Origin: Pseudanabaena galeata CCNP1313
GTDB taxonomy: Bacteria > Cyanobacteriota > Cyanobacteriia > Pseudanabaenales > Pseudanabaenaceae
Reading direction: 5' to 3'
Assembly: GCF_029910235.1 (NCBI RefSeq)
Contig: NZ_CP112874.1
Location: forward strand, 2,232,001 to 2,296,000
Length of the DNA: 64,000 bases
Within the stretch, counting starts at the first letter, position 1, and each line of letters opens with the position of its first letter. Below, piece after piece: positions 41,983 to 59,895 of this stretch. Both the position numbers and the translations under genes were made by a program. The notes under the pieces are model-generated. The model ran no database searches. It worked only from the letters and a program-made list of their open reading frames with translations, and was not told where the DNA came from.

Positions 41983-42096
41983 AAATTGGTTTTTTAGAAG
42001 CCAGCCATAGGCTGGCTTCTAAAAAACCAATTTTGGTGATTCCAGTGCCAAAGGCACTGGAATCACCAAAATTGGTTTCATAATATGAATTATTGC
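41983..42096 (+). repeat. family E double-hairpin repeat, copy 2
   Basis: Hairpin 1: GGTTTTTTAGAAGCCAGCC-ATA-complement. Hairpin 2: CCAATTTTGGTGATTCCAGTG and complement. Ends TTTCATAATATGAATTATTG like TTTCATAATGAGAATTGC in copy 1. Confidence 0.8.
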
Positions 42097-42139: not shown

Positions 42140-42376
42140 TTATACTGTGTGCTGAAATAAAGCGTTCAAATACACTTTGGCAGTACTGCGATAGCTATGG
42201 GATGCATTGGGAGATGTGCCGTGGCGATCGCTACCACCGTTTTGTAACAGAAACAAAGACAAAGCAGCCGCAAATACACGATCCTGATCCCAGTCAGGAT
42301 GTGACTCTAGGTAACTTTTGAGGGTTTCGTGCAATTCTTCTGGAATTTCGGCCAATATACTGACGGTCGTACTCAT
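42140..42376 (-). CDS. DUF2811 family protein
   Basis: 78 residues: an N-terminal beta strand and helix (VSILAEIPEELHETLKSYLE), then HPDWDQDRVFAAALSLFLLQNG, a disordered Ser/His-rich segment, and a hydrophobic helical end. This is the cyanobacterial DUF2811 pattern. It resembles short DNA-binding or antitoxin-like folds but no function is known. It stands alone, 63 bp from a family E repeat and next to the DnaA-box cluster. Confidence 0.78.
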   Translation of the reverse strand: MSTTVSILAEIPEELHETLKSYLESHPDWDQDRVFAAALSLFLLQNGGSDRHGTSPNASHSYRSTAKVYLNALFQHTV

Positions 42377-42661
42377 GCTGAAACCTCAACTCTTAAACAA
42401 GTTTGATAGAAATGACGCAACCATTTTTCAGAGGTCGGGTTTTAATTGTGCTTGCAAGTAGCTATTCTTGTCAACGTAACGAAGCGTTAAGTATTAGTGA
42501 CAAATAAATGAAACTGGTTTGATGGAATCAGCATTTCAAAGCGATTTAGTTTACGTTTCTTAACAATAAATAGGCTTCAAAAGTTTTCCCAAGTGAAATG
42601 CTCATTCTGTTAACGAATCCTTAACCAGTAAGGCAGCAGTATCTTAATCTCAAAAAGCACC

Positions 42662-42724
42662 TGTGGAAAACTAACACTTATCTGTGGAAAAAGTCGCAAT
42701 ATCTGTGGAAAAGTCTGTGGAAAA
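42662..42724 (+). other. cluster of four DnaA-box-like 9-mers
   Basis: TGTGGAAAA occurs at 42662, 42683, 42704 and 42716, all in the same orientation, with spacings of 21, 21 and 12 bp, so the first three face the same side of the helix. The complement TTTTCCACA differs by one base from the E. coli DnaA box and equals the form described for some cyanobacterial origins. Confidence 0.6.
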
Positions 42725-42797
42725 CTTTTGAGCATTTAAGTTGAAAATTATTTTTTTCTTAATATTTATGGCGATTTATACATCAACAAAAAACGAC

Positions 42798-42827
42798 AAT
42801 TTACGTTAATTTACGTTAATTTACGTT
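42798..42827. repeat. AT-rich 10-bp tandem repeat x3
   Basis: AATTTACGTT three times in a row, right after a T-rich tract (42745-42770), 70 bp from the DnaA-like boxes and 9 bp before the nfeD stop. Position and composition fit an unwinding element, an inference. Confidence 0.7.
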
Positions 42828-42835
42828 TTTTGCTG

Positions 42836-43270
42836 CTAGTGACTCAGCCAATTTTCAGGAACAACGATCAATGTTGTGCCTTGTCGCCTCAGAATAATGA
42901 CTTTTTGTTGAGCAGCGATCGCGATTTGAGGATTATCACATTTGGCTTTCCATGAACCGCCTTCATAACGAACTCTTCCCGTTTCTCCTGCGGGGATTTC
43001 CGTAAGCGTAACCCCTTCACTCGCCTCTTTTAGTTGGTGCGAGTCCTTGGGAATAAATCGCCGTGAAGCAACTGCTAACATTGCCGAGATCAGCATCCAA
43101 GCAAGGATTTGCAAGGCAGGAATCGGCAAAATCAGCGCGATCAAACCTACTAGTAACGCAGCTAAGCCCATTGCCCCAGCAATCATAAAGGTTGGCAATG
43201 GTACTAATAACTCAATAACGCAAAGGGCAATACCGATCAGTAGCCAGACTTGACTAGGTAGTAAATTCAT
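42836..43270 (-). CDS. NfeD-like membrane protein
   Basis: 144 residues. Three hydrophobic segments at about 5-25, 27-48 and 52-70, then a soluble OB-fold domain (about 85-144): EIPAGETGRVRYEGGSWKAKC and VIILRRQGTTLIVVPEN, as in NfeD/ClpP-class accessory proteins. NfeD usually acts with a stomatin-like (SPFH) protein and a serine protease; neither is adjacent here, although an SPFH protein is encoded at 60128. Start ATG 43270. Confidence 0.85.
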   Translation of the reverse strand: MNLLPSQVWLLIGIALCVIELLVPLPTFMIAGAMGLAALLVGLIALILPIPALQILAWMLISAMLAVASRRFIPKDSHQLKEASEGVTLTEIPAGETGRVRYEGGSWKAKCDNPQIAIAAQQKVIILRRQGTTLIVVPENWLSH

Positions 43271-43353: not shown

Positions 43354-43468
43354 TAACGTGAGTTCGATATAGCCATTTGCGGCGTGCGAAGCACGCCGCA
43401 AATGGCGAAAAATGGTAAGAATCGCTTAGCGATTCTTACCATTTTTCGCTTTCGTCGAACTGACGTTA
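43354..43468 (-). mobile_element. family B TIR element, copy 5
   Basis: Inverted 115-bp copy from TAACGTGAGTTCGATATAGC to TCGTCGAACTGACGTTA. Hairpins intact; compensatory change CGCTTAGCGA for CGCTAAGCGA. Confidence 0.85.
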
Positions 43469-43496: not shown

Positions 43497-43608
43497 TAGC
43501 TGTAGTCACTTTCAATAGGACAAGCCAAAACCCAAGAAGCGAGTGGCGGCGCGAATCGCCGCCACTCGCTTCTTGGGTTTTGTGTCCTAACAAGAGTGGC
43601 TATAGCTA
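43497..43608 (+). repeat. family D palindromic repeat, copy 3
   Basis: ATAGGACAAG...CCAAAACCCAAGAAGCGAGT and GGCGGCGC-GAA-TCGCCGCC, with complement ending TGTGTCCTA. Ends TATAGCTGTAG and GGCTATAGCTATA are changed compared with copies 1 and 2, and the stem sequence differs while pairing is kept. Confidence 0.75.
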
Positions 43609-58608: not shown

Positions 58609-59895
58609 ATGACACCTAATCTCTTCTCAAACCTCAATCGCCGCAAATTCATCGGACTCTCCACCCTGTTTTTACTTGGAGCCTGTGGAGCGCAAACCAC
58701 TCAATCCACAACCTCTTCAGGTAAAAGCAAAATCATTTTTTGGACAATGCAATTAAAACCGCAGTTTGACAAATATATGACGGATTTAATTGCAGGATTT
58801 GTAAAAGAAAATCCAATGGCGGAAGTGGAATGGGTGGATATTCCTTGGGGAGAGATGGAAACTAAGATCTTGAGTTCTGTCGCGGCAAAAACTGCTCCCG
58901 ATGTCGTGAATCTAAACCCTCAATTTGCATCGAAACTAGCGGAGAAAAAAGCACTTGTAGATATGGGTAAGGCGATATCTGATGCTGATAAGGCTAGTTA
59001 CTTCCCGAATATTTGGAAAGCGAATCAACTGGATAACGTCACCTTTGGATTGCCTTGGTATGTAGCCACTGACATCACTATTTACAACCGTTCTCTATTT
59101 GAAAAAGCTGGCTTAGATCCTGCAAAACCACCTAAAACTTTTGAAGAACTTACTAAGGTTTCCGAACAGATTAAAGCAAAAACTGGTAAATATGCTTTCA
59201 TGCTGACAATGGATGGGGGGCAGGTTTTAGAAGCGATGGTACAGATGGGCATGAAGTTGCTCGATCCAAATGGCAAGGCTGCTTTTAATGATCCTGCTGG
59301 CAAAGCAGCCTTTGACTATTGGGTAAATCTATTTGAGAAGCAACTAATTCCCCGTGAAATCTTAACCGAAGGACATCGCAAAGCCGTAGAACTTTATCAG
59401 GCGGGTGAATTGGCAATTTTATTAACTGGCCCGCAGTTTTTGCAAGCTGTAGCTAAAAATGCACCCGAAACTGCTAAAACAACCGATATTGGCTCACAAA
59501 TTACTGGCTCAACGGGTAAAAAGAGCGCCGCAGTGATGAATGTCGCTGTGCCGACGACATCTACTAATCAAGAGCTAGCTGTAAAATTCGCCCTCTATTT
59601 AACCAATGCTGAAAATCAGCTTGCTTTTACCAAAGTAGAGAATCTCTTACCTTCCACAATTAAGAGTTCTAGCGATCGCTATTTCACGGAAGCCGCCAAA
59701 GATGCATCTATCCTTGATCGCGCCAGAGTAATCAGTGCCTCACAACTTCCACAATCTGAAGTCTTAATCCCTCCTGCGAAAGACATTGAAAAGCTTCGCA
59801 AGATTATTTACGAAGAGTTACAACTGGCGATGCTCAAGGAGAAATCTAGCGATAAAGCGATCGCTTCTGCTGCCGAACGTTGGAACTCTCTTTAA
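58609..59895 (+). CDS. ABC transporter sugar-binding lipoprotein
   Basis: 428-residue solute-binding protein of the carbohydrate ABC (family 1) type. N-terminus has NRRKFIGLSTLFLLGACG: a twin-arginine-like start and a lipobox LGAC (cysteine at about 26). The mature part begins with a typical KIIFWTMQLKPQ strand, AEVEWVDIPWGEMETKILSS and APDVVNLN. Substrate probably a sugar or glycerol phosphate. Matching permease and ATPase genes are not in the window. Its TAA stop is within the palindrome 59890-59942. Confidence 0.87.
   Translation: MTPNLFSNLNRRKFIGLSTLFLLGACGAQTTQSTTSSGKSKIIFWTMQLKPQFDKYMTDLIAGFVKENPMAEVEWVDIPWGEMETKILSSVAAKTAPDVVNLNPQFASKLAEKKALVDMGKAISDADKASYFPNIWKANQLDNVTFGLPWYVATDITIYNRSLFEKAGLDPAKPPKTFEELTKVSEQIKAKTGKYAFMLTMDGGQVLEAMVQMGMKLLDPNGKAAFNDPAGKAAFDYWVNLFEKQLIPREILTEGHRKAVELYQAGELAILLTGPQFLQAVAKNAPETAKTTDIGSQITGSTGKKSAAVMNVAVPTTSTNQELAVKFALYLTNAENQLAFTKVENLLPSTIKSSSDRYFTEAAKDASILDRARVISASQLPQSEVLIPPAKDIEKLRKIIYEELQLAMLKEKSSDKAIASAAERWNSL

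Follow-up and report, generated by a model that had tools for sequence, protein, structure and literature searches.

A conserved DnaA-box array upstream of the cyanobacterial DUF2811 gene: a putative DnaA-responsive control region

The datA, DARS1 and DARS2 loci of E. coli are non-coding clusters of DnaA boxes located away from oriC, and IHF/Fis sites accompany them. The array analyzed here is likewise a non-coding DnaA-box cluster off oriC, but it differs in that array, promoter and the DUF2811 gene travel together, and genomes without dnaA mostly lack DUF2811. Cyanobacterial oriC lies mostly beside dnaN or dnaA. In Bacillus subtilis, eight intergenic regions are regulated by DnaA (Ishikawa et al., 2007, cited in PMC7198777), and they also consist of off-origin DnaA boxes adjoining particular genes. 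In contrast, our array type accompanies a single gene in many families of the phylum, in one orientation and at a preferred distance upstream of a promoter. DnaA in cyanobacteria is treated in earlier work: TTTTCCACA is given as the species-specific motif of cyanobacteria, and DnaA work on oriC boxes is reported (PMC4674748); DnaA ChIP-qPCR was done at oriC (PMC6478999); and dnaA-less cyanobacteria are known, the job of DnaA in cyanobacteria with DnaA-independent replication being stated as unclear (PMC7198777). The DUF2811 promoter resembles RpaB-regulated HLR1 promoters, examples of which are given with RpaB named as the binder in PMC6331805, in having HLR1-like direct repeats upstream, but it differs from those in combining the repeats with a DnaA-box array. 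The literature searched, with most subscription journals outside its scope, yielded no report of this array and no paper that mentions DUF2811.

The window, the whole 64-kb stretch that was analyzed, is C1:2232001-2296000 of a 5.84-Mb genome. Four exact TGTGGAAAA boxes lie on the plus strand at 42662..42670 (box 1, nearest DUF2811), 42683..42691 (box 2), 42704..42712 (box 3) and 42716..42724 (box 4), with start-to-start distances of 21, 21 and 12 bp. This is the arrangement that an earlier sequence-only reading of this DNA had described, and its T-rich tract (about 42748-42768), its three AATTTACGTT repeats (three TTTACGTT units at 42800, 42810 and 42820) and its 459-bp gene-free region (the gap between flanking ORFs, 42377-42835) were also recovered. 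TGTGGAAAA has 5 matches in the window vs. 0.96 expected (100 shuffles, largest 4), and the sampled chromosomal background, with the oriC stretch left out, is 10 TGTGGAWAA boxes per 380 kb. The segment TCAAAAGTTTTCC (42577..42589, plus strand), complementary to 42719-42731 and conserved in alignment A4, is part of a weak box-like element in the opposite orientation. Both flanking genes are on the minus strand, with the end of an NfeD-like gene at 42836 and the start of DUF2811 at 42376; of these two, the array is therefore upstream of DUF2811 only. The DUF2811 (PF10929) gene (42140..42376, minus strand, 78 aa, Pfam E 4e-27) is the constant neighbor of the array. Rfam gave 33 matches with E of 1 or less, none of which reached its gathering score, and a search of the plasmid collection gave no match. 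TTAAC units 11 bp apart at 42610-42628, which we take to be Pho-box-like, show good conservation within alignment A4 of the Pseudanabaena group, and long intergenic hairpin-like inverted repeats surround the locus (42021-42079, 43393-43458 and 43527-43581).

A 471-bp region was searched against 29 genomes, its own included, and 25 gave a match. Four boxes at 21, 21 and 12 bp are present in 15 of the 17 genus loci (L008-L024), the others being L011, with three boxes, and L024, with none and a match limited to its initial 132 bp; 16 of the 17 show the DUF2811 motif. Within the genus, the only match in G015 was to its own oriC-like cluster, and outside the genus the matches were short and mostly box-like.

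At larger scale we read 94 loci (93 listed places of the phylum sample plus the window) and 80 named loci (best 80 of 533 relatives). The two sets overlap, the loci are related and partly duplicated, and the counts are not independent; redundancy was cut by identity only, and box calls are exact TGTGGAWAA matches. An exact box lies at -640..-200 of DUF2811 in 155 of 167 loci (full upstream region, window excluded), two or more in 111, and 305 of 315 boxes share the same orientation. Box density upstream of DUF2811 is 4.29/kb vs. 0.043/kb elsewhere in these loci (about 100x), with neighboring boxes 21 bp apart in 109 of 161 intervals and 22 bp apart in 20. The box-free loci (12 of the 171 with at least 400 bp upstream) comprise four copies from picocyanobacteria of family f2, four from genus g17, G081, and the named L170, L189 and L229. 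The f2 genomes with box-free copies carry two or three DUF2811 copies each; among the 15 marine-type f2 copies read, boxes are present in 11 and absent from 4. Far-side ORFs, read by eye without family search, differ widely between loci. Paired boxes occur somewhere in the genome in 71 of 80 DUF2811-bearing genomes, the nine without being eight f2 genomes and G208. Family f18, most of whose members examined here have dnaA, keeps DUF2811, usually with one exact box and degenerate partners; beyond many f18 arrays, on their far side (e.g., L040-L045), stands AATGATAAGAATTA, which resembles a Fur box. A different off-origin array, with three boxes at 20-22 bp, was seen in several cyanobacterial families (L130-L132, L134-L137 and L141-L143) next to guaA-like or CDF-transporter-like genes (by eye) or to a ~117-aa protein without a Pfam family over the cut-off. 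Presence of the protein beside a third type of array does not track dnaA.

The likely DUF2811 promoter is sigma-70-type (TTGACA-18-CACAAT). Its -35 element TTGACA (42469..42474, minus strand), 196 bp from the start of box 1, is invariant in 13 sequences of A4 and found in many families; the -10 element CACAAT (42445..42450, minus strand, A4 alignment) follows after an 18-bp spacer. DnaA boxes lie in the putative control region of the gene, as at DnaA-regulated promoters. In 98 of 160 loci, 181-184 bp separate TTGACA from the gene-side box. Among 76 non-redundant loci this spacing is found in 36 and missing in 40, vs. a random-placement mean of 0.81 and a largest value of 4 in 1000 placements; TTGACA lies at 149-210 bp in 57 of the 76, and 13 have none before the ATG. 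The ATG lies some 220 to 610 bp away from the gene-side box and, among 119 anchored loci, 63 to 426 away from TTGACA; since the latter distance varies, the array keeps station with the promoter and not with the start codon. Other recurring distances are 196-197 bp in the Pseudanabaena group, including the window, and 204 bp in Laspinema, which may be 183 + 21 after decay of an original first box. The 196-bp spacing of the window is off the commonest one by 13 bp, a difference that is not a whole number of helical turns, and 9 of the 11 marine-type f2 loci with a box have no TTGACA between box and ATG. A conserved RNA leader was considered and rejected: between families, no conservation extends beyond ~36 bp after the TTGACA start.

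The HLR1 consensus is (G/T)TTACA(T/A)(T/A)-N2-(G/T)TTACA(T/A)(T/A). The window holds four HLR1-like hits: one at 42550..42567 (plus strand), between array and promoter, two overlapping ones in the three TTTACGTT units of 10-bp period (42800..42827, plus strand), and one at 59807; the sites by the array and promoter have 2 mismatches to the consensus. With this consensus and up to 2 mismatches, 39 of 73 non-redundant promoters, preselected for TTGACA 140-210 bp from a box, have a site vs. a mean of 2.1 and a largest value of 7 in 20 shuffles, and 34 have none. A TTTGTAAAGTTATGTAACAAAA-like sequence is frequent ~92 bp before TTGACA in the aligned regions and reads on the other strand as an HLR1-type repeat. 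Tandem TTTACGTT-type units were seen in only one of 12 named relatives checked, so the TTTACGTT repeats are a local feature.

The occurrence of DUF2811 was then compared with that of dnaA. DUF2811 matches were found in 104 of 244 phylum genomes (103 in the class and a weak one outside it) and in 210 of the 214 genomes of an unselected class sample. The phylum sample lists 11 genomes of the class that have no DUF2811, and none of these has a dnaA over the cut-off. Three further genomes are dnaA-less: G173, whose DUF2811 match has two stops, and G208 and G081, good genomes that keep DUF2811. By family and genus labels, the 14 would represent at least six lineages. Ten of them have no box pair anywhere and the other four hold five pairs, none near DUF2811, vs. 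pairs in 25 of 26 comparison genomes (24 shown with dnaA, the other two being G153 and G179). In the class sample, 207 genomes have both genes, two have neither (G078 and G083), two have dnaA without DUF2811 (the draft assemblies G015, in 460 contigs, and G275, in 380) and three have DUF2811 without dnaA (G081; G322, 62% complete; G333, 83% complete). Array decay is seen under the same genus label: the best match in dnaA-less G081 has 2 mismatches vs. three exact boxes in G147, and dnaA-less G208 has one exact box vs. two in G169. Four genomes of genus g17 have dnaA and DUF2811 and no array. As a control, the unrelated conserved small protein A3 was looked for: 13 of the 14 dnaA-less genomes carry it, in one case as a partial match, as do 42 of the 46 other genomes, while the genome of the window does not have it.

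These data suggest, with good probability, that (i) the array is a DnaA-responsive upstream control array of DUF2811; and (ii) DUF2811 itself most likely has a part in DnaA-dependent replication control, given that dnaA-less lineages have no array and mostly no gene. DnaA would bind ~175-250 bp upstream of the -35 element, probably in oligomeric form on boxes two helical turns apart, and the HLR1-like sites lying between the array and the promoter, bound by an RpaB-family regulator, would bring in light, so that DUF2811 transcription would be set by active DnaA and the light or redox state. The sequences show the boxes with their orientation and their link to DUF2811, the preferred distance to the promoter, the HLR1-like enrichment and the joint absence with dnaA; binding by DnaA and RpaB, any sign of the regulation and the role of DUF2811 are inference. 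Several points argue against a control array: the distance of the array from the promoter, which is large for a classical regulator; the loci without the preferred TTGACA spacing or an HLR1-like site; the g17 genomes with dnaA and no array; and the genomes that have only one of dnaA and DUF2811. A narrower proposal, which we put forward tentatively and hold to be less likely than not, is that DUF2811 is a cyanobacterial DnaA partner or regulator under joint control of DnaA (array) and RpaB/RpaA light/redox or clock signals (HLR1), becoming purposeless and being lost without DnaA; if so, its promoter would be a node tying light to replication initiation. Through a promoter that carries DnaA boxes together with RpaB-type sites, light could act directly on replication control. 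The array is a concrete, conserved candidate DnaA target, and DUF2811 is an uncharacterized gene that mostly occurs where dnaA does, its natural losses being available for comparison.

The DUF2811 sequence might suggest a ribbon-helix-helix protein. Profile searches hit no ribbon-helix-helix family and detected no homology to DNA-binding families; the AlphaFold2 model is poor (mean pLDDT 56.9), and Foldseek found nothing at E 0.001 or better. Among the best 80 of 533 relatives, the named ones closest to the DUF2811 protein of the window are from Phormidium tenue FACHB-1050 and several Pseudanabaena. The sole hit in viral contigs (L250, IMGVR_UViG_3300037420_002493) encodes a relative with 43% identity.

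The several boxes in one orientation, distant from the core promoter, would also fit an array that acts mainly in sequestering or recycling DnaA, like E. coli datA/DARS and the B. subtilis DnaA-box clusters. The link to DUF2811 would then be secondary, and the preferred spacing would be needed for a nucleoprotein complex formed with the -90 region, not for transcription. The conserved sequence between array and promoter would parallel the IHF/Fis sites at datA/DARS, and the phylum has other off-origin arrays at 20-22 bp spacing. However, the array is tied to the same gene and promoter in different families, and a bare titration site would not predict that genomes lacking dnaA mostly lack DUF2811 too; we regard sequestration as the main function as rather unlikely. 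That the boxes are bound by a factor other than DnaA is very improbable: the same 9-mer is used in the cluster beside dnaN, box pairs nearly vanish in dnaA-less genomes, and the motif is the cyanobacterial DnaA box published in PMC4674748. As the exact cyanobacterial DnaA box is present, and the array is conserved across families and absent where dnaA is absent, the array is a putative DnaA-binding locus, a designation that the sequence comparison supports well.

The sequence-only reading had offered a candidate chromosomal origin or DnaA-binding locus, and only the latter half stands. The look-up of dnaA and dnaN went against an origin here: dnaN is at C1:3877124, dnaA at C1:31 and the array, beside neither, at C1:2274662. 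A genome scan for exact TGTGGAAAA pairs returned two places, the window array and C1:3876479-3876592. The latter is an oriC-like cluster upstream of dnaN, 1.6 Mb from the array, with nine boxes, five one way and then four opposite; it ends ~440 bp before the dnaN ORF and is followed by CCCCTACTACTACTATTTAAT, a DnaA-trio-like run. No box was found in the first 3 kb of C1, where dnaA starts. The window array shares with this cluster, and with cyanobacterial oriC beside dnaN as described in PMC4674748, the exact DnaA box and in part the 21-bp spacing, and it has a T-rich tract on its far side, all of which would suit a second origin. In contrast to the cluster, it has no boxes in both orientations, no DnaA-trio-like run and no dnaN. 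Such runs occur at 7 of 12 box clusters checked, including the five oriC-like clusters of the window's genus (dnaN adjacency checked for the window genome's own only), vs. none of 160 DUF2811 arrays (within 90 bp). The dnaN-side cluster with its nine boxes and trio-like run, and the arrays without a trio, speak against the chromosomal origin reading, which we reject, and a second replication origin at the array is hardly credible. Both within the window and in 20 stretches of 20 kb sampled from the genome, GC skew is small and irregular, with no clear switch at the array. The claim that genes left of 52 kb are mostly on the minus strand and those right of it mostly on the plus strand holds roughly when non-overlapping ORFs are counted from a length of 120 aa upward (left: 9 plus, 25 minus; right: 8 plus, 0 minus), but the switch is ~9 kb from the array.

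Within the oriC-like cluster (L038:3554-3593, genome G000), two boxes 31 bp apart flank GGTATTTATAC, and similar elements are present in box pairs of several other genomes. That DUF2811 might act on the GGTAT..TTATACC element of oriC-type box pairs is offered as an idea only. Second, divergent dnaN matches were seen in nine genomes, often on a separate contig (G091:C2, G099:C18, G101:C10, G105:C21, G130:C2, G193:C6, G256:C2, G155:C11 and G222:C68).
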